From: a virus | Reading direction: 5' to 3' (one strand) | DNA length: 50,701 nucleotides | Virus record (IMG/VR): IMGVR_UViG_3300020020_000045 | Location: 1-50,701 of that record | In this document: positions 10,986 to 30,217 of the stretch, piece after piece | Position numbering within the stretch: the first letter of the stretch is position 1 | Layout of the letters: every line of letters starts with the position of its first letter | The notes under the pieces: generated by a model | What the model saw: the letters and a program-made list of their open reading frames with translations, nothing else | What the model was told of the DNA's origin: nothing | Databases searched by the model: none | Program-made: the position numbers and the translations under genes

Positions 10986-11582
10986 ATGATACCTATAAAA
11001 TATAAGAAAGAAAAACCTTGTTTTATCTGTAATATAATAAAACCTCGTTCTGAATTTAATTGTTATCAATATAAATGTAAAGAATGTGAAGGAAAAGACC
11101 TATTTAAATGTATAAGATGCAAGGAGATAAAGGAAAGAAAATACTTTTCAAAAGATAGGAGTAATAAATCAGAGGTACATGGATCTTGTAAAAAATGCAA
11201 GAATAAAATAGCGAGGAAGAGAAAAAGAAAGTATAAGAATACTGTAATTAAACTAGTTAGAATGAGGTTTAGAGACATGTTGAGAAGATGCGGAAAGGAA
11301 GCTAATAATAAAAACATGGTAGAATTAGGTTATACAAAAGAAGATTTTATCAATAAATTTCCTAAAATTGAGAAAGGATTTGAAGTAGACCATTGTATCC
11401 CTTTAAGTTGGTTTGAAGAAGGAACACCTATTTATATAAGTTGTTCTTTATCAAACCTTCAACTTTTAGATGCAAAAACAAATAATTTGAAGAAAAATTT
11501 TTATTGTCATATACCTTCTGATAGTCAATATGTTACAGAAGCTTTGAAATATATTAGAAAAGAATATTTGGAAAACTTCTAA
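10986..11582 (+). CDS. HNH homing endonuclease with zinc-ribbon N-terminus
   Basis: Product of 198 residues. The N-terminus has paired CxxC motifs (CFICN, CKECEG, CIRCKEIKE, CKKCKN), likely two zinc ribbons or treble clefs. A basic linker follows (RKRKRKYKNT). The C-terminal half carries FEVDHCIPLSWFEEGTPI, SNLQLLDAKTNNLKK, the H and N parts of an HNH / HNH_3-like nuclease. It closely resembles in layout the gene at 29630-30217, so they are probably paralogous mobile elements. It has its own promoter and lies next to the tRNA cluster. Free-standing homing endonucleases of this type spread between phages. Confidence 0.85.
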   Translation: MIPIKYKKEKPCFICNIIKPRSEFNCYQYKCKECEGKDLFKCIRCKEIKERKYFSKDRSNKSEVHGSCKKCKNKIARKRKRKYKNTVIKLVRMRFRDMLRRCGKEANNKNMVELGYTKEDFINKFPKIEKGFEVDHCIPLSWFEEGTPIYISCSLSNLQLLDAKTNNLKKNFYCHIPSDSQYVTEALKYIRKEYLENF

Positions 11583-13930: not shown

Positions 13931-14239
13931 ATGGCAAAGCAAAAGGCTCTTTTAATAGAATATGAATTGGATTTCCTTGAAAAACAACTTCAGGAATTAA
14001 AAAAATATATAGAGGCCAACCCTCTTTCTGAACTTAAGGACAGAATGGCCTATAAGGAAACTAAAGGAGGAGGTGTAATTCCTATTTGTGTAGCTAATAA
14101 AGAAACACAAAGAAAAGACCTATCTCAGGCTCTTAAAGATTATGCTGAAATCTTAAGAACAGTGGATATGATGAGAGAGAAAGAAGATGCTAAGAAAGAA
14201 GCAAGGGGTTCAGCAACAGTTCCTCATAGAATGCAGTAA
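13931..14239 (+). CDS. Small coiled-coil protein, candidate small terminase
   Basis: Product of 102 residues; ends in a TAATG overlap with TerL, so translation is coupled. Starts MAKQKALLIEYELDFLEKQL and is mainly helical with heptad-like spacing; the middle (DRMAYKETKGGGVIPICVAN) is a short beta-turn. Basic Ala-rich end. Position and size fit TerS, but TerS is very diverse and no DNA-binding HTH is obvious. Alternatively a chaperone for TerL. Confidence 0.55.
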   Translation: MAKQKALLIEYELDFLEKQLQELKKYIEANPLSELKDRMAYKETKGGGVIPICVANKETQRKDLSQALKDYAEILRTVDMMREKEDAKKEARGSATVPHRMQ

Positions 14240-17200
14240 TGGAAATTAAAACTACAGAATTTTTCAGGAATATGAAGAAACTTCCTCCCATTGGGAGTGA
14301 GGAGTTTAATCAACTTGTTAAATGGGAAGAACAGAAGATTAAAGGAGGTGTGACAGTAAATGGGGTATTTATTCCACCCTGGCTTTATTGGCACCTCAAT
14401 CATTGGAAGATTCGTGTAGATGCTACAGATGAATATGGTAATGAAATAAGAATAGAAGACTACCCACAATTACGTGATAATGAATGGATAAGAGCAGAAG
14501 CTCTTGAGAGATGTAGAGTTGAGAAACTTGGCTACATGGAAATAGGTGGGAGACAAGGCGGCAAAGAATTAGCTGATTATGAGCTTCTTATAAAAGATAA
14601 TGAAGTAACCTCTATTGGGAAAGCTAAAGTGGGGGATAGTATATATTCAAAAAGTGGGAAATTAACAACGATAACAGGTGTTTTTCCACAAGGAATAAAA
14701 CCCATTTATAGAATGTACTTAATAGATGGTCGAACTATAGATTGTGGGTTGAATCATTTATGGGAAGTTTATGATTGTAAAAATGTTAGGTTGATAAAAA
14801 CAACAAAGCAATTAATAGACTCTTCTCTGTCTTTTAAACATAAAAGATCTGGTAGTTCTTATAAATATGCATTACCTAACACTGAAGAGGTACAGTTTTC
14901 CAAAAAAGAACTACCTATTCCACCATATGTTTTAGGAGCTTTACTTGGAGATGGTTGTACAACAAAAGGCACTAATACTATAAATTGTTTAGATTTAGAA
15001 ATTATAGAACAATTTAAACTATTGTTATTTGATTACGAAATAAAACAAAATCCTTATACAGATAAATCTGGTAAGAAGTATTTATGTAATCATACAATAG
15101 TTTATAAAGGTACAGTAAAAAGCTTTCATAATGAAAATCCTTTAAATCAAAGTTTAAAACAATTAAGTTTAAAGTGTAAAGCTCCTTTAAAATTTATTCC
15201 AGAAATATACAAATACTCCTCAATTGAGGATAGGTATGAACTTATTAGAGGATTATTGGACACAGATGGTTCTATAAATGAAAAAGGTAGTATAGAAATA
15301 AAATTGAGTTCAAAACAGCTTATTAATGACATTGCTTGGGTACTCAGAAGTTTAGGTATACAATGTAGACAAGGTACTCTAGATACAATAGGTAAAATAC
15401 AGGTATTACCTAATAATCATGAATTTATATCAGATCATTTATATTACAGATTATATATAAAAACAGATAAACCTATTTTTAAATTAAAAAGAAAATTAGG
15501 TAGAATAAAACTTAGAAAAAGAAGAAATATAACTTCTATAACAAAAATAGAATATTTATATGATTATCCAGCAACCTGTATAACTGTAGATAGTCCAGAT
15601 CATTTATTTTTGACAAAAGATTTTATAGTTACTCATAATTCAGAAATGGAGGCTTCTTATTTTGGTATGAATGCAATCACTTTTAAGCTAACACAGAACA
15701 TTATAGTTTGTGGTAATGACTATGATTTGTCCCTTTTAAAAGATAAGGTTGATTTTGGACTAAAGAATATATGGGAGGGACTTAACATTCCTCGTTTAGA
15801 TAAGACATGGAAATCTAACCAAATACGTTTAGGGTATAAGAAACCAAATGGAGATGACGATATTTGGTCTTATATAGTTATCCGTAATGCCAAAGATGGA
15901 CATAATACAGAGGTGGCAGCAGGTACAACAGCTAAGTCTTTTATAATGGATGAGGTTGGAAAGTATGCATTTGCACAGGTATTTGAAGCAGGGGTTCCTG
16001 CAATGAAAGGAGAAAATGGTTTTAGAGCTGTTCCTATTCTTGTTGGTACAGGTGGTAGCTTTGACAATGGAAAGGATGCAGAAAACTTCTTCCACAACCC
16101 TAGAGCCAACAACTTCCTTGCATTTAAAAATGAAGCAACAGAAAAAGAAACTTGCTTATTCCTCTCTGGTTTATATAGACAGGATAGTAAGGAATTCAAG
16201 ACATTAGACAGATTTTTAATAGAAGATTTAGGAAGAGAACTACAAGGAGATGTTTCTGAACTTAAGAAAATAACAATTAAGGTTACTAATAAAGAAAAAG
16301 CTAAAGATAAAATAGAAGCAGAAAGAGAAGCTGCTAAAAAGAGTCCTGATCGTACTGTATATTTAAAGAAGGTGATGTACTATCCCCTAACTACAGACGA
16401 ATGTTTCCTTTCAGATTCAGATAACATATTTGATGTAGAAGCTGCTAAAAGGCAGAAGATGAGAATTATAACACAAGAAAGAACAGGAGTTCCTATTGTG
16501 TTATATGCAGATGAGGATGGTATTAAGCATGAATTTACAGATAAGCTTCCTATTACAAATTTCCCTTTACGTCCTGTAGATTCAAAAGATGCCCCTGTAA
16601 TCATATATGAATTCCCTGTAGATAATGTTCCATATGGGCTATATGTTGCAGGAGTTGACCCATACAGACAGGGAAAGTCTGAATACTCTTCATCTTTAGG
16701 AAGTGTATACATTTATAAAAGAATGCACTCCTTAACAGGAGAGAAGTATCAAGACATGTTTGTTGCCTCTTATGTAGCACGTCCTGATAAGAAGGATAAA
16801 TGGGAAGAACAAGCAAGACTTCTAATTAAATTCTACAACGCACGTACTCTATGTGAAAATGATGACATTTCATTCATAGAATATATGAAGGCTAAAGGGG
16901 ATGCTCATTATTTAGAGAAGCAGCCTGATTGGTTAAGAGAGATAGTTCCTAATACAACAGTGGCCCGTGAATACGGTGTTCATAGGAGTGCTGACAAAAT
17001 CGTTGATTTCCTACACAATTGTTTAAAACGTTACCTTGAAGAGGAATTGGTTGTAGAAAAGGACGAACAAGGAAATATTACAAGACAGGTTGTGGGGATA
17101 CATAGAATCCTTGACCCTGTCTTATTAGAGGAAATTATACAATATAACGATAAAGAGGGGAATTATGATCGTGTTGTAGCAGCCGAACTAGCTTTAGCAC

Positions 17201-17352
17201 AAGCTTATAAAATGGACCCTATTTTTGGTAAGGTTGGTGGAGATGGAGATTCCAGAACACAAGCTTTACATAAGAAGAATAAGAAAAAACCTGCATTATT
17301 TGGAGAATCCAAAGGAATGTTTAGAACTAAGAAAAGAAAACTTTTTACATAA
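14239..17352 (+). CDS. terL: Terminase large subunit precursor with intein
   Basis: The precursor has 1037 residues, of which 110-467 are an intein, leaving 679 for the mature ATPase-nuclease. The P-loop (Walker A) GGRQGGK-S is split exactly between Lys109 and Ser468, so unspliced TerL cannot bind ATP properly. Walker B is FIMDEVGK. A later VAGVDPYRQGKSEYSSSLGS with acidic residues fits the RuvC-like nuclease. TerL pumps DNA through the portal and cuts it. The overlap with the upstream gene (TAATG) and the portal start overlapping its stop (TAATG) indicate one operon. Intein details are in a separate entry. Confidence 0.95.
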   Translation: MEIKTTEFFRNMKKLPPIGSEEFNQLVKWEEQKIKGGVTVNGVFIPPWLYWHLNHWKIRVDATDEYGNEIRIEDYPQLRDNEWIRAEALERCRVEKLGYMEIGGRQGGKELADYELLIKDNEVTSIGKAKVGDSIYSKSGKLTTITGVFPQGIKPIYRMYLIDGRTIDCGLNHLWEVYDCKNVRLIKTTKQLIDSSLSFKHKRSGSSYKYALPNTEEVQFSKKELPIPPYVLGALLGDGCTTKGTNTINCLDLEIIEQFKLLLFDYEIKQNPYTDKSGKKYLCNHTIVYKGTVKSFHNENPLNQSLKQLSLKCKAPLKFIPEIYKYSSIEDRYELIRGLLDTDGSINEKGSIEIKLSSKQLINDIAWVLRSLGIQCRQGTLDTIGKIQVLPNNHEFISDHLYYRLYIKTDKPIFKLKRKLGRIKLRKRRNITSITKIEYLYDYPATCITVDSPDHLFLTKDFIVTHNSEMEASYFGMNAITFKLTQNIIVCGNDYDLSLLKDKVDFGLKNIWEGLNIPRLDKTWKSNQIRLGYKKPNGDDDIWSYIVIRNAKDGHNTEVAAGTTAKSFIMDEVGKYAFAQVFEAGVPAMKGENGFRAVPILVGTGGSFDNGKDAENFFHNPRANNFLAFKNEATEKETCLFLSGLYRQDSKEFKTLDRFLIEDLGRELQGDVSELKKITIKVTNKEKAKDKIEAEREAAKKSPDRTVYLKKVMYYPLTTDECFLSDSDNIFDVEAAKRQKMRIITQERTGVPIVLYADEDGIKHEFTDKLPITNFPLRPVDSKDAPVIIYEFPVDNVPYGLYVAGVDPYRQGKSEYSSSLGSVYIYKRMHSLTGEKYQDMFVASYVARPDKKDKWEEQARLLIKFYNARTLCENDDISFIEYMKAKGDAHYLEKQPDWLREIVPNTTVAREYGVHRSADKIVDFLHNCLKRYLEEELVVEKDEQGNITRQVVGIHRILDPVLLEEIIQYNDKEGNYDRVVAAELALAQAYKMDPIFGKVGGDGDSRTQALHKKNKKKPALFGESKGMFRTKKRKLFT
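14566..15639 (+). mobile_element. Intein with LAGLIDADG endonuclease, probable class 3
   Basis: The 358-residue insert begins E-LADYELLIKDNE and ends FIVTHN before extein Ser468. The endonuclease has both dodecapeptides: VLGALLGDG (near residues 231-239) and LIRGLLDTDGS (335-345). The splicing domain has HLWEV (His173, Trp175), TCITV (Cys447), DSPDHLF (His455) and THN (Thr465, Asn467). The first residue is Glu, not Cys or Ser. A non-nucleophilic first residue together with Trp in block B, Cys in block F and Thr in block G is the signature of class 3 inteins, where the block F cysteine starts splicing. The class call is an inference from these positions. Confidence 0.85.
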
Positions 17353-19949
17353 TGGCAATTATTAGATATACAAGAAATGATAATGTCAAGGCAGCTTATT
17401 TGAATATATTTCCTGATCAGTTTAAAACTGAAAAGGAAAAACAATCAGATGAGTGGATCAAAGACACTATGGATTACTTTGCAAACAAAGCATATGCTGA
17501 ATATAAGAAAAACAGAGAGACATTTGTAAAGAATTATGACCTTGTAAAAGGAATACTAAGATCTGAGGATTTTTATATAGAACCAGAGGTAAAGAGCTTT
17601 ACCGAAATGTTAACTGCTTCTTTAGACCTCCCTGCTTACGTAAAGCATTATTCTATTATGACAACTCCTATTAATGAAATTGTAGGAGAAATCACAAAAA
17701 GGCCAGATGGGTATAGAGTTAAGGCTTTTGATGACGATAGTCGTTCTGAAGAATTAGAATATAAGACACAAATTCTCCAAGATTTTATCCTTTCAAATGC
17801 TCGTACTAAAATACAAGAAAAACTTGCTATTGCTGGAGAAGAGGTTGAAGAAGAGGAACTTAATCAAATGACCTTTGATGAAGTTAAAGATGATATTGAC
17901 AGCTACACATCTACAGCAGAGAAGTGGGCAAATCACATTCTTACATGTACAAAAGTTGATTTTAATATTAAAGAAAAGAGCGAAGATGCAATGAGAGATA
18001 TGTGTATCTCTGCTAGGGAATACTATCATATATATGAAGATAACTCTAAAGTTGGTTATAATATATGCGTTGCCAATCCTAAGAATACATGGAAATTAAC
18101 AACTCCTGATAAGAAATATGTTTCAGATCCTACAGGTAGAGCGCAAGGTGCTTATGCTGCTGGTACTGTTGAAGTAATGGAATTGTCTGAAATAATCGAA
18201 AACGTTCCTAATATTAAAAAGGATGAGATAGACCACCTTAGAACCTCTCTTGAAGATTACGGTCTTATAAATGTAAGAGAATCTAACCTTGGCAATCCTA
18301 ATGTTACACCTGGTATAGACTCTATCACTTATGATACTTATGATCCTTTAGTTCTTCAAGAAAGAATGATCATTGAAAGTGAAATGAAAGAAAATAATGA
18401 CAGCTTAAAAGACTTTTTAGGCTTATCTTCTAATGTTTCAGCATTTGGTTATAAATATGTTGTTGTAAGAGCATATTGGCTTAGTAAGAAGAAAATAGCA
18501 AGAGTGACATATGTAGATGAAATTGGTAATGAACAATCTATTCTTGTAGACGAAAGTTACAAGTCTGGTACAATTCCTACACAAACTTCTATAGAATGGG
18601 GATGGATAAATCAATGGTATCAAGGAATGAAGATTGGTCCAGATATTTATCATGTTGAACCTTTCAAACTTCTGAATTATTGTCCTATTATAGGAATTGA
18701 CTATGAAATCAAGAATACAGAGGCTAAAAGCCTTGTAGATATGATGAAGCCTTTTCAGGTGATATATAATGTTTGTATGAACCAATTATATAGACTTCTT
18801 GAAAAAGAAATAGGTAATGTTGGAGTTGTTAATATCAGAAGGGTTCCTAGAGTGAAAGATGGAGATGCTCAAGATGATATTGATGTTTGGGAATTAGAGG
18901 CTAGAGAAAAGGGTATTATGTTTGATGATGATAGTCCAGAGAATACAAAAGCTCCAGTATCTAATCAAACAGTGGCTCGTAATCTTGACCTCACAAGAAG
19001 TAATGAAATACAGAGTAGGTATAATCTGGCTGTACAAATGAAAAATGAATGTTGGGAACTAATAGGTATGTCCAAACAACGTCTTGGAAGTACTTCTCCC
19101 AGCGAATCTGCAACTGGTGTAAATGCTGCTATTACACAAAGCTACTCTCAAACAGAGCCTTTGTTCGTAGCTCACGAATATGTATTAGGGCAGCTATATC
19201 AAGCCATCATTGATGCATCTTTATATGTGGAGAGTCAGAAACCACTATCAACATTGTCTTATATAACATCACAAGGGGAATCAGCATTTGTACAAGTAAA
19301 TGGTACAGACCTGAAATTCAGGGATTTAAAAGTGTTTCCTACAAACCGTCCTGAAGACAAGAAGTTGTTTGAAGAAATTCGTCTATTGGCTCAACCTATG
19401 TTACAAAATGGAGGAACCTTCTATGACGTAATAGAGCTATATGCTACAGATTCTGTAAGGCAAATGAAGAAAGTGTTTAAATCTCTTAAAGAAAGACAAG
19501 AAGAACTTGAGAATTCTACATTGCAACAGAATCAACAGAAGATGGAGCAAGATGGACAAATTGCACAAGCTCAATTAGAACAACAACAATATGAGAAAGA
19601 ACAACAGTTGTTACATGATGACAAACAAAAAGAGCTTGATAGGATTAATAAAAAAGAAATCGCTATTATTCAGTCTCTTGGATTTGGTAAAGTGGAAGGG
19701 GAAGACTCAAATAATAACGAAATTTTTGATGTCTTAGAAAGTAGTAGATTCTCTGCTGAAAGACAGGATGCTGATAAAGCTCATAAACTAAAGCTTATAG
19801 AACTACAGAATAAGATGAAAGAATCTGCTAATAAGCAAAAAACAGAAGAGGAGAAAATTAAGCTTGCTAGGGATAATATGAAGAACGATCTTCAAATAGC
19901 CCGTATTAACGCTAAAAATAAAGCTAAACAGGCTAAAAAGAAAAAATAA
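17352..19949 (+). CDS. Portal protein
   Basis: Product of 865 residues directly after TerL (TAATG overlap). The middle carries a long mixed alpha/beta core with WGWINQWYQGMKIGPDIYHV, and SPSESATGVNAAITQS, typical of large phage portals of this group. Residues beyond about 700 form a long Gln/Lys/Glu-rich coiled coil (LQQNQQKMEQDGQIAQAQLE) and a very basic tail, likely inside the capsid. As the dodecameric vertex ring it holds TerL during packaging and the tail afterwards. The call is based on position, length and fold pattern. Confidence 0.85.
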   Translation: MAIIRYTRNDNVKAAYLNIFPDQFKTEKEKQSDEWIKDTMDYFANKAYAEYKKNRETFVKNYDLVKGILRSEDFYIEPEVKSFTEMLTASLDLPAYVKHYSIMTTPINEIVGEITKRPDGYRVKAFDDDSRSEELEYKTQILQDFILSNARTKIQEKLAIAGEEVEEEELNQMTFDEVKDDIDSYTSTAEKWANHILTCTKVDFNIKEKSEDAMRDMCISAREYYHIYEDNSKVGYNICVANPKNTWKLTTPDKKYVSDPTGRAQGAYAAGTVEVMELSEIIENVPNIKKDEIDHLRTSLEDYGLINVRESNLGNPNVTPGIDSITYDTYDPLVLQERMIIESEMKENNDSLKDFLGLSSNVSAFGYKYVVVRAYWLSKKKIARVTYVDEIGNEQSILVDESYKSGTIPTQTSIEWGWINQWYQGMKIGPDIYHVEPFKLLNYCPIIGIDYEIKNTEAKSLVDMMKPFQVIYNVCMNQLYRLLEKEIGNVGVVNIRRVPRVKDGDAQDDIDVWELEAREKGIMFDDDSPENTKAPVSNQTVARNLDLTRSNEIQSRYNLAVQMKNECWELIGMSKQRLGSTSPSESATGVNAAITQSYSQTEPLFVAHEYVLGQLYQAIIDASLYVESQKPLSTLSYITSQGESAFVQVNGTDLKFRDLKVFPTNRPEDKKLFEEIRLLAQPMLQNGGTFYDVIELYATDSVRQMKKVFKSLKERQEELENSTLQQNQQKMEQDGQIAQAQLEQQQYEKEQQLLHDDKQKELDRINKKEIAIIQSLGFGKVEGEDSNNNEIFDVLESSRFSAERQDADKAHKLKLIELQNKMKESANKQKTEEEKIKLARDNMKNDLQIARINAKNKAKQAKKKK

Positions 19950-19952
19950 CAA

Positions 19953-20675
19953 ATGGCTAAACCAGCAGAAAAACGCAACTTTAAGCTCGATCATAAGTTG
20001 AGCTTAAAGGTTGACGATTTGACATTTCAATTACACAACTATGACCTCGATTTGAAGTCCAATCATATATATTTATTTGGTGTGGATAGAGGTTATGAAT
20101 CTGTTGTTGGTGATCAGGAACCTGGAATAGAACATATGATTGCTAGCAGGTTTATAAGAAATTTCAATCTTTGTATGAGGGTGAACCCAAATAAACCCAT
20201 TTTAATTCATATGAAGAGTAATGGAGGTTATTGGGAAGAAGGAATGGCTATCTTCGATACTATTAGAAGTTGCCCTTGGCCAGTTACAATTCTTAACTAT
20301 ACACATGCCCGCTCAATGACTTCTATAATATTTCAGGCAGCGAACAAGAAAGTAATGATGCCACATTCCCATTTCATGTTTCATGAGGGAGACTATTCAA
20401 TAGAAGGGACATATAAACAAGTAAGAGCTGCTGTGGCTTTTGATAAGAGCCGAGCTGAAATGCTCGATATTTATACAAAGTCAATGAAAGAACATGGAGT
20501 ATTCAAAGATAAGCCTGTAAAATATATCAAAGGATGGCTTACTTCCAACATGAATACCAAAGAAGATGTATTCTTAACTGCCCAAGATACAGTAAAATAT
20601 GGACTGGCAGATGAAGTATTTGATTACAATTGGAAAAACTTAACAGAATACACTCCAGAACAGATGGAACGATAA
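19953..20675 (+). CDS. ClpP-like prohead maturation protease
   Basis: Product of 240 residues. It matches the ClpP/S14 fold: SNGGYWEEGMAIFDTIRSCP (compare the G-G oxyanion segment followed by G-M-A-I-x-D-T) near residues 89-108, THARSMTSIIFQAAN with the probable catalytic Ser121, and HSHFMFHEGDYSI with catalytic His144. The acidic third member lies further on. Such enzymes in phages cleave scaffold and capsid precursors after assembly. Its place between portal and scaffold supports that. The start follows the portal stop by three bases. Family call strong. Confidence 0.85.
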   Translation: MAKPAEKRNFKLDHKLSLKVDDLTFQLHNYDLDLKSNHIYLFGVDRGYESVVGDQEPGIEHMIASRFIRNFNLCMRVNPNKPILIHMKSNGGYWEEGMAIFDTIRSCPWPVTILNYTHARSMTSIIFQAANKKVMMPHSHFMFHEGDYSIEGTYKQVRAAVAFDKSRAEMLDIYTKSMKEHGVFKDKPVKYIKGWLTSNMNTKEDVFLTAQDTVKYGLADEVFDYNWKNLTEYTPEQMER

Positions 20676-22017: not shown

Positions 22018-23571
22018 ATGGCAGCTCAATTTATTCCAGGTCTAACTGGTTTTACTTATGCAAGGGTGGCATCTATGGACAAACGTGCTATAGGTAAACT
22101 CACAGATTCAAATCACTTGGAGAGTTTTCACTCCGATGAACCTGCTAACTATGATAAAAAAGTCATAAGTTTATATACGCAGAGTTCTTTATATAGTAAT
22201 GACTTCTTGGACATGATTAACAAGTCCACTCCTTACTATATCGATAATAACAGTGATGCTTGGAAATGGGATATTAATGTTCCTTACAAGTTCCCTAAAA
22301 TCATTGCTATTCCTCAGAGCACATTAGACTTGGCAACTCCAGGTATTGATGGACATGAATTCCAATTAGTATTGGATACAAATGAATTCTCTAAGAACGC
22401 AATTGTTTCCGTAGGAACTCGTCAGTATGGACCTCGTCTATACGTTATCAAAGACCCCCTTCCTTGGAATAGCGGATTCTTGTATTCATTTACATTAGTA
22501 AGTGACAACCCTACAGTTGATTTCATTTCTTCTACATTCCTGAAAACAGGTATTGAGCTTGAATTGATAGATGCTTCTATTGGTGAATTCGATCAAGACC
22601 TATTAGGACTTCCTCGTTTAGGTGAGAAAATCACAATGTTTGAATCTCTTGGCGCAGGTTACGGATTTGAACATAAAATTACAGAGTGGGCTGATACAAA
22701 AATGTTGCGTAATGCAAATGGTCAACCATTAGACATTTTAGTATATGCTCAATCTCGTAGAAACGAAGGAGCTATCACACGTAATGATATTAAGTGGGAG
22801 CCATTCGTAGAATATTTGATGCGTAAGGCAATGATTGACCTTAAGGTTAAGAAAATGATCTGGGGTAAGCCTGGAACAGTTAAAACTGGTGGTTCTAAAC
22901 AAGAATTGAAGCGTACATCTGCTGGTGTATACCACAGAATGCGTAACAATGGAAACTTGGTACAATATAATAGAGGTGAATTCTCTGCCAATCTAATACG
23001 TTCAGTATTCGGTGATCTATTCTACCGTAGAGTGGATGTTAAAGACAGACGTGTTAAAATGTATACTAACGAAGCTGGCTTCGATACATTCCAACAAGCT
23101 CTAAAAGATGATGCTTTGAATTCAGGACTTACATTCGTTGCAGATAGCGGTAACCGTTTCTTACAAGGTGAAGGTCAACATATCACTTATAACTTTGCAT
23201 TCGATGCAATGGTTACAAGAGAAACAGGACGTGTTGAGTTAGTTCACTTAAAAGAACTTGATTTACCACAAACAAACCTAGAATTTGGTCAGAACAAAAA
23301 ATCTACACCTGTATTCTTTGTGTTTGATGTGTCTCCTATGTCTGATGGTTCGTTGATTAACAACATTCGTGAAGTACGTATGCAAGGTCAACCTTCTATG
23401 ACTTGGGGATATATTGATGGAACTCGTCACCACTTAGGTTTTGCAAGAAGCCAAGGTATGTCAAGTGGTAACAAATTCCCAGGATATGAAATCTGGATGA
23501 AGGACCGTTGTGATATTTTCATTGAAGACTTGTCTCGTACTGTTCTTATAGAAGAGATACCACAGTTCTGA
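22018..23571 (+). CDS. Major capsid protein
   Basis: Product of 517 residues, beginning MAAQFIPGLTGFTYARVASM. Strand-rich, with long beta segments (WKWDINVPYKFPKIIAIPQS), and no signal or membrane parts. Codon use is the least AT-biased of the window, as expected for the most abundant virion protein. The C-terminal part (MKDRCDIFIEDLSRTVLIEE) fits an A-domain-like HK97 end. Its TGA stop shares bases with the ATG of the HNH gene (TGATG). Based on length, position after the scaffold and composition. Confidence 0.85.
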   Translation: MAAQFIPGLTGFTYARVASMDKRAIGKLTDSNHLESFHSDEPANYDKKVISLYTQSSLYSNDFLDMINKSTPYYIDNNSDAWKWDINVPYKFPKIIAIPQSTLDLATPGIDGHEFQLVLDTNEFSKNAIVSVGTRQYGPRLYVIKDPLPWNSGFLYSFTLVSDNPTVDFISSTFLKTGIELELIDASIGEFDQDLLGLPRLGEKITMFESLGAGYGFEHKITEWADTKMLRNANGQPLDILVYAQSRRNEGAITRNDIKWEPFVEYLMRKAMIDLKVKKMIWGKPGTVKTGGSKQELKRTSAGVYHRMRNNGNLVQYNRGEFSANLIRSVFGDLFYRRVDVKDRRVKMYTNEAGFDTFQQALKDDALNSGLTFVADSGNRFLQGEGQHITYNFAFDAMVTRETGRVELVHLKELDLPQTNLEFGQNKKSTPVFFVFDVSPMSDGSLINNIREVRMQGQPSMTWGYIDGTRHHLGFARSQGMSSGNKFPGYEIWMKDRCDIFIEDLSRTVLIEEIPQF

Positions 23572-24044
23572 TGGTAGAAAAATTTTGTGAGTATTGTAAT
23601 AAAAAATTAGAAAAGAAAGAAGGTAGTAAAAAGCAGTTTAGAAGAGACAGAAAATTTTGTAATCAAAAATGTCACGATGCTGCTAAATACGAAAATCATT
23701 CAGTTGCTCACAAGAAATTCAAAGATGAATATGGTTTAAATAAGTATACATTAAAAGGAATTAAGAAAAAACTAGAACTAATAGAATTATTCGGAGGAAA
23801 GTGTGAAAAATGCGGATACAGTAAAAACATATCAGCTTTTGATTTTCATCATAGGAATCCTGACGAAAAAAGTTTTGAAATTAAGGTTCAATTCTTAAAT
23901 TACAAAAGTGATGATATTATTCTAGAAGAAGCTTTGAAATGTATGTTATTATGTTCAAATTGCCACAGAGAAATACATAATCCTTACATGGATACAGAGC
24001 ATGTAAGAAGAGTTTTAGAAATTAAAAATAACAGTAATAGATAG
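23571..24044 (+). CDS. HNH endonuclease coupled to the capsid gene
   Basis: Product of 157 residues. N-terminal cysteines (FCEYCNKKLE, RKFCNQKCHDAA) fit a zinc-binding segment; the nuclease core is KCEKCGYSKNISAFDFHHRN and MLLCSNCHREIHNPYM. Its ATG overlaps the capsid stop (TGATG), so it is translated by ribosomes leaving the capsid gene. The terminator that one expects right after a capsid gene lies beyond it. It is a mobile element at a conserved site. AT-richer codons than the capsid gene agree with recent transfer. Confidence 0.85.
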   Translation: MVEKFCEYCNKKLEKKEGSKKQFRRDRKFCNQKCHDAAKYENHSVAHKKFKDEYGLNKYTLKGIKKKLELIELFGGKCEKCGYSKNISAFDFHHRNPDEKSFEIKVQFLNYKSDDIILEEALKCMLLCSNCHREIHNPYMDTEHVRRVLEIKNNSNR

Positions 24045-28112: not shown

Positions 28113-29018
28113 ATGGCAACAAATTGCTCCAATTGTTATAACGGTTGTACACAAATAGTTTCTGACCAATGTGTTAAATATACAGGTGTAGATGTTCCTG
28201 CTTTAGGAATATTGAAGGGAGATTCTCTTTCTTACGTAGAGCAGGCTCTTATTACATTCTTAACAGCAACAATAAATGGTACAGGAATATCTATTACTAT
28301 AGATGAAGACCTATATTGTCCATTAGTTTCAGACTATTTACAAGCATGTGAAACTGTAACAGCTTTAGACCTATTTAAAGCCCTTGTACAGGCAGCTTGT
28401 AACTTACAGGGACAAGTTGATGATGTTGTAGAAGACATAGCTGTAATAGAGGCAGATTACACAATAGAGTGCTTAGAAGATGTAGAAGCTGATGCTGGTA
28501 CACATGCTATTGTTCAGGCTGTTATTAATAAACTTTGTGAAATAAACCTTACTTTAGCAGCTCTAGCTTTAGATGTTGAAACTAATTATGTTAGACTTTC
28601 TGAATTAAATACATTTATTCAAGCATATATTGACTCAACTGTAGGAGCCACTAGATATTCTAGTAGAATGGTTCCTTATACAGTTGTAGAATATTATGGA
28701 ACTTTAGGTGTATTTGATGCTACAGGTGCAGGTTTGCCTGCTACAGTATGGGAAGACATATACTTATGTAATGGACTTAACGGCACACCTGATAAAAGAG
28801 GTAGAGTGGGTGTAGGAGCCATTGTAGGAGTTCCTGGAGGAGCTTTAGCTTCAGCAGTAGATCCTGCTTCCGATCCAACATTCAACCCTAATTACGCTGT
28901 TGGTGATGTAGCAGGAGCTAATAAACAAACACTTATAACATCTCAAATTCCTGCTCATACCCACACTATTATGATGAACAATCGAATGCTGGTGAACTTT
29001 CAGGAGCTAATTATTTAG
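28113..29018 (+). CDS. Tail-collar domain adhesin, frame-broken before its end
   Basis: Product of 301 residues. The long N-terminal half has repeated helical segments (LVQAACNLQGQVDDVVEDIA), then PDKRGRVGVGAIVGVPGGAL and ITSQIPAHTHT, the collar domain of phage tail fibres with its H-x-H metal site. The frame then reads nonsense and stops at 29018. The -1 frame continues with YYDEQSNAGELSGANYLANR to NKQPALAAYYIMYIP, the normal end of the domain, stopping at 29209. A one-base change near 28967 therefore breaks the gene. Likely receptor-binding or fibre tip. Confidence 0.8.
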   Translation: MATNCSNCYNGCTQIVSDQCVKYTGVDVPALGILKGDSLSYVEQALITFLTATINGTGISITIDEDLYCPLVSDYLQACETVTALDLFKALVQAACNLQGQVDDVVEDIAVIEADYTIECLEDVEADAGTHAIVQAVINKLCEINLTLAALALDVETNYVRLSELNTFIQAYIDSTVGATRYSSRMVPYTVVEYYGTLGVFDATGAGLPATVWEDIYLCNGLNGTPDKRGRVGVGAIVGVPGGALASAVDPASDPTFNPNYAVGDVAGANKQTLITSQIPAHTHTIMMNNRMLVNFQELII

Positions 29019-29209
29019 CTAATAGAGGCAATCCTGGATTAGGTACTGATTGGAGATATGAATTACAAAATGCTGTAACAGGTGATCCTGATGTAGGACA
29101 AGTAGCTGAAAGCACAACAGGTATATCTATTGATAATACAGGTGGTGGAGCAGCCCATGACAATAAACAACCTGCATTAGCAGCGTACTATATAATGTAT
29201 ATCCCTTAA
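28967..29209 (+). pseudogene. Out-of-frame C-terminal end of the tail-collar protein
   Basis: Eighty residues in the -1 frame complete the collar domain (N-x-Q-P-A-L-A-A-Y-Y-I-M-Y-I-P at the end, as in other collar proteins). No start codon of its own is evident. Without a frameshift it would not be made. Confidence 0.75.
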
Positions 29210-29629: not shown

Positions 29630-30217
29630 ATGAAAAAGTGTAAAAAATGTAATGTTAATAAAGAAGAGTCAGAATTTGGTTTTTATTATAAAACAAAAGA
29701 TAAACTAAATTATCAGTGTAAGATATGTAAGATATGTAAGTCAGAATATTATAAAAGTAGAAAATATGATAGGCGTTTATATCAACATAATTATAAGAGG
29801 TTAATAACTGACGAAAGAAAAGAGTATTTAAAGAAATATTTAAAAATATATAGAAAAATTCATAATTCTACCCACAAAGAAGCAAGAAGGATGAATATCA
29901 TGGTTAGAAGAGCTTTAAAGTACAAGAACGAAACAAAAGTATTAAAGTCTAAAGAGATACTAGGTTGGACCAAGGAGCAATTTATAGATAAAATAGGCAA
30001 AATACAAGCATCTCACGATATAGATCATAAAATCCCTATATCTTGGTTTTTGAAAGATACCCCTGTTAGTATTATTAATCATTTAGATAATTTACAACAA
30101 ATTCTTTCAATTGACAATAGAAAGAAAAGGAATTCTTACTATGATAATGTGCCTGATTCTTATTTAAAAATGGCAAAGCTTCATTTAAAGCCAAAATATC
30201 AAGATATTGTAAGGTAA
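29630..30217 (+). CDS. HNH homing endonuclease
   Basis: Product of 195 residues. N-terminal zinc-binding pairs (KKCKKCNVNKEESEF, CKICKICKSEYY), basic helical middle, then WTKEQFIDKIGKIQAS, HDIDHKIPISWFLKDTPV and LDNLQQILSIDNRKKRN. The same order and motifs occur in the HNH gene at 10986-11582, so the two are paralogues that probably moved by homing. A compact terminator overlaps its stop. Confidence 0.85.
   Translation: MKKCKKCNVNKEESEFGFYYKTKDKLNYQCKICKICKSEYYKSRKYDRRLYQHNYKRLITDERKEYLKKYLKIYRKIHNSTHKEARRMNIMVRRALKYKNETKVLKSKEILGWTKEQFIDKIGKIQASHDIDHKIPISWFLKDTPVSIINHLDNLQQILSIDNRKKRNSYYDNVPDSYLKMAKLHLKPKYQDIVR

Follow-up and report, generated by a model that had tools for sequence, protein, structure and literature searches.

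The window, i.e. the whole stretch of 50,701 nucleotides that was analysed, contains the gene of a terminase large subunit (terL), which is followed by a portal gene and, further downstream, by a major capsid protein gene (Table 1). The match of the latter to the Crassvirus major capsid family indicated that the window derives from a crAss-like phage. The terL product is a precursor of 1037 amino acids, 679 of which remain if the insert described below is subtracted.

A Clp-protease-like gene (19953-20675; PF00574, 5.5e-22), located between the portal and the capsid genes, probably encodes the prohead protease. Three ORFs of the window (10986-11582, 23571-24044 and 29630-30217) are HNH/endonuclease VII-like, and the second of these starts right where the capsid gene ends. 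Rfam did not find any group I intron in the window, thus the three ORFs look free-standing. In the region 28113-29208, a tail-fibre-like ORF (phrog_8469) ends at 29018, shortly past a collar-like PAHTHT motif. The bases 3′ of 29018 resemble, in a different frame, the remainder of the collar-like domain, which ends with AAYYIMYIP near 29208. The break at 29018 is either a frameshift or a sequence error.

Table 1. Coordinates of the terL features and of the neighbouring structural genes
Feature	Position	Strand	Basis
terL (terminase large subunit), interrupted in frame by the intein	14239..17352	+	ORF; phrog_6681 match, 4.3e-85
N-extein, last residues Walker A GGRQGGK109	14239..14565	+	intein-free relatives run on as GGRQGGK-SEMEASYFGMN
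Class 3 intein of 358 aa (Glu110-Asn467), including a LAGLIDADG endonuclease domain	14566..15639	+	empty-site comparison, PF14528, 69-intein alignment, AlphaFold model
Block B His173-Leu-Trp175 (B:10 to B:12)	14755..14763	+	His and Trp invariant (69/69); H-x-W spacing as in MchDnaB1 His65/Trp67 (PMC7664689)
LAGLIDADG motif 1 (LGALLGDG), predicted catalytic acid Asp238	14932..14955	+	Asp in 61/69; PF14528
LAGLIDADG motif 2 (IRGLLDTDG), predicted catalytic acid Asp343	15244..15270	+	Asp in 67/69; PF14528
Block F Cys447 (F:4), predicted initiating nucleophile	15577..15579	+	Cys in 69/69; matched by the Cys engineered into 6riz
Block G Thr465-His466-Asn467 (THN)	15631..15639	+	all invariant (69/69)
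C-extein, +1 Ser468 of Walker A onward	15640..17352	+	ORF and intein-free relatives
Portal gene, next after terL	17352-19949		phrog_6547
Major capsid protein gene, Crassvirus family	22018-23571		PF23898, 8.1e-27

Boundaries of the insert in the Walker A motif

The insert comprises 1074 nt (TerL residues 110 to 467), is in frame and stop-free, and lies between Lys109 and Ser468. In twenty-one intein-free TerL relatives, with extein identities of 66-80%, the site reads GGRQGGKSEMEASYFGMN or a near variant of it. The DNA flanking the join could be aligned with the relatives on both sides: in L003, for example, 45/60 and 51/60 bases were identical. Because the 21 relatives read straight through, the boundaries of the insert are unambiguous. 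With Glu following Lys109 and Asn preceding Ser468, a cut at Lys109/Glu110 and Asn467/Ser468 is the only one that restores GGK-SEM, which ruled out shifted boundaries. The first-pass annotation had proposed that the insert divides the Walker A motif between Lys and Ser, starts with Glu and ends with His-Asn. The empty sites showed the division to be exact, Glu110 directly follows Lys109, and His466-Asn467 was found at the predicted place, invariant in the alignment described below.

In addition to the in-frame insertion, the 21 empty sites and the exact junctions, the insert has the terminal Asn (Asn467) and the +1 Ser (Ser468) of an intein. The latter is the Walker A Ser and also the predicted second nucleophile. 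The G+C content of the insert is 26.7%, compared to 38.2% and 35.6% in the exteins. The low G+C content and the absence from the nearest TerLs are as expected for a mobile element, and the pattern corresponds to a mobile intein sitting precisely at the Lys/Ser junction of Walker A.

Class 3 residues and the first position

Class 3 inteins are defined by Trp at B:12, Cys at F:4 and Thr at G:5, and can dispense with a nucleophile at position 1 (PMC7664689; PMC5050341). The insert and 68 further inteins of viral contigs were aligned (n=69; L101, 773 aa with a misplaced start, is counted among the 69 rows and was dropped from the later alignment A1). Six residues were invariant in all 69 inteins: His173, Trp175 (B:12), Cys447 (F:4), Thr465 (G:5), His466 and Asn467. 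Conservation of this degree shows that the class 3 residue pattern is not due to chance. Position 1 is occupied by Glu110, which is not a nucleophile, and the column is variable. These results supported the earlier assignment of Trp175, Cys447 and Thr465 as a W-C-T triad, and with it the reading of the insert in the TerL Walker A as a class 3 intein. The location of Cys447 inside block F had been set beforehand as a test of this assignment; in the alignment it falls on position 4, and it matches the engineered Cys107 of 6riz.

In the MchDnaB1 class 3 intein Cys124, His65 and Thr143 form a protease-like triad, and Trp67 belongs to the same motif (PMC7664689). By analogy, their counterparts here would be Cys447, His173, Thr465 and Trp175, with His173 as the likely catalytic base. 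The first-pass list of key residues lacked the invariant His173. It did contain His455, which is located where it was said to be, but occurs in merely 29/69 inteins (Lys in 27/69) and was rejected as a catalytic residue.

The family sequence profile scored the WCT-engineered gp41-1 variant C1A/F65W/D107C (6riz) at 81.2 bits, higher than the wild type (6qaz, 67.3 bits). In the alignment the class 1 intein PI-SceI has no Cys at F:4, and it ends with VVVHN as opposed to VTHN.

Eight of the 69 inteins (L096, L104, L106 and others) combine the full WCT set with Cys as first residue, thus each has two candidate nucleophiles. Two deposited terminase inteins of the same wider family, those of Vibrio phage JSF3 (L169) and Lactococcus phage AM4 (L168), have Cys at F:4 and the THN end, but their block B Trp is replaced by Asn or Ile; the AM4 intein starts with Cys. 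They are either Trp-less class 3 inteins or intermediates between class 1 and class 3, and they indicate that the WCT triad is not absolute in the wider group.

The distribution of residues at position 1 was Ala 34, Glu 8, Cys 8, Met 5, Phe 5, Gly 4, Ser 2 and others, a tally good to one or two rows because a few of the start positions were chosen by visual inspection. Glu was found in seven further inteins of the alignment (L083, L084, L085, L091, L092, L094, L099), and also in the TerL intein of the cultured Bacteroides phage BF766P4. An initial Glu is thus a recurring minority state, as expected if residue 1 is not the nucleophile, and it was discarded as a unique feature. To call it unusual had been an overstatement, and so had the same claim for a class 3 intein in TerL: such inteins are known in mycobacteriophages (PMC5050341) and are present in deposited crAss-like phages.

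Predicted fold, splicing route and alternative explanations

The AlphaFold2 model of the intein, obtained with a 54-sequence alignment, had a mean pLDDT of 94.7 and a pTM of 0.92, and displayed a HINT and a LAGLIDADG domain. The whole-chain model could be superimposed on the intein endonuclease PI-SceI with a Z score of 27.9 (333 residues, 3.7 Å), and it matched inteins and a hedgehog autoprocessing domain. Comparison with known inteins by structure prediction, as the first-pass annotation had suggested, placed class 3 DnaB inteins first among the splicing-domain-only chains (6bs8_C, Z 20.5, 1.6 Å over 123 residues; 6rix_B, Z 20.3), but in a tie with Prp8 inteins (Z 20.2), less than 1 Z apart. 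The modelled fold speaks for an intein that carries a homing endonuclease. Scores of class 3 and other HINT domains lie within 1 Z of each other, and for this reason the class was assigned from the WCT residues and not from the fold alone.

The endonuclease domain matches PF14528 (LAGLIDADG_3, 8.7e-11) and contains both motifs with their acidic residues, Asp238 and Asp343. Judged from the sequence, the two acids and the sporadic distribution of the intein support a role in homing.

We consider it highly likely (probability about 0.94) that the insert interrupting Walker A of this crAss-like TerL is a class 3 intein, intact and equipped with a LAGLIDADG homing endonuclease, which splices by the class 3 route. 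The boundaries are exact, the splicing residues conserved, and the frame is open through both domains. By analogy with the WCT mechanism (PMC7664689; PMC5050341) the whole terL ORF would be translated and the HINT domain would fold. Cys447, activated by His173 and with Trp175 and Thr465 adjacent, would then attack the Lys109-Glu110 bond, giving a branched thioester, and the N-extein would pass to Ser468. Cyclisation of Asn467, helped by His466, would be followed by joining of the exteins to GGRQGGK-SEMEA, completing the P-loop. The endonuclease domain may cut, or may formerly have cut, intein-free terL alleles, into which the element would be copied.

With Walker A split by 358 residues, unspliced TerL should neither bind ATP nor package DNA; a similar argument for TerL inteins is made in PMC5050341. 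The suggested block on packaging, lifted only once splicing has been completed, would follow from the split position. Such a gate would be a consequence of position rather than evidence of regulation, because close relatives manage without the intein.

A residue 1 that is neither Cys nor Ser is also common to class 2 inteins, and the +1 Ser is a nucleophile. A class 2-like reaction, with a direct attack of Ser468 on the N-terminal junction and no nucleophilic role for Cys447, is nevertheless very unlikely, because Cys F:4, Trp B:12 and Thr G:5, the set that defines class 3 (PMC7664689; PMC5050341), are invariant in 69/69 inteins. We regard as even less probable that the intein has decayed and no longer splices, leaving TerL dead. 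The source of the DNA is a virus contig and a close relative of the intein was not found, but the frame is fully open, the splicing residues and both LAGLIDADG acids are all present, the fold model is confident (pLDDT 94.7), and a non-splicing insert in the Walker A of the packaging ATPase is expected to be lethal.

A third proposal would leave the class 3 chemistry unchanged and add to it: splicing at the P-loop could be gated, e.g. by a redox-sensitive Cys447, to time packaging, and the intein kept for control rather than only as a selfish element. Mycobacterial class 3 DnaB inteins are reported to be under oxidation control (PMC6195587 and PMC8557812), and H2O2 inhibits N-cleavage (PMC7664689). 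The 21 close TerL relatives without intein show it to be dispensable, and we think such control improbable, if somewhat less so than the two preceding alternatives.

Relation to known TerL and DnaB inteins

The class 3 intein described here is of a kind already known, since TerL class 3 inteins (PMC5050341) and crAss-like TerL inteins (PMC7886860) have been published. The nearest intein relatives found were 42-48% identical, and the bacterial genome search yielded two distant ones, no more (33% and 27%). The intein is a clean addition to the class 3 inteins at the crAss-like TerL P-loop, with intein-free alleles of up to 80% identity for comparison, and it shows that residue 1 of this group is free to be Glu. 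The annotation of several deposited TerL genes of crAss-like and Bacteroidales phages is silent on the class 3 inteins that these genes contain, a point of importance given that TerL serves as a standard marker gene for phages. The intein-bearing TerL gene of BF766P4, for instance, is annotated merely as a hypothetical protein.

Deposited TerLs with class 3 inteins at this P-loop site include those of the crAss-like phages DAC15 and csAssE-Sib and of mycobacteriophage YassJohnny. The TerLs of DAC15, cr111_1 (both Crassvirales according to their records) and csAssE-Sib share with the present one the insertion after the P-loop GK, His-x-Trp, Cys F:4, THN and a +1 Ser or Thr, but their inteins start with Ala instead of Glu. 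The csAssE-Sib intein (L002), at the same site, is a reduced class 3 intein of 241 aa without the LAGLIDADG acids. TerLs of the Delta group of crAss-like phages typically carry inteins, whose class is not stated in the portion of PMC7886860 used. The inteins of BF766P4 and Porphyromonas phage005b also have class 3 residues at GK/S, and that of BF766P4 begins with ELSD, sharing the initial Glu, whereas both phages are outside the crAss-like group according to their records and their TerL exteins differ.

Mycobacteriophage TerL1 class 3 inteins likewise have the WCT triad in TerL. The available part of PMC5050341 reports that five TerL/terminase inteins splice and that two TerL inteins cut intein-free alleles. 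These inteins belong to actinobacteriophages, and the class 3 sites named there (TerL1-c, -d and -e) are away from the Lys/Thr position, at which YassJohnny has class 3 residues. The class 3 inteins MchDnaB1 and M. smegmatis DnaB (6rix, 6bs8) are bacterial DnaB inteins solved as chains of 125-131 residues without endonuclease domain, but they share with the TerL intein the HINT fold and the arrangement of His, Trp, Cys and Thr.
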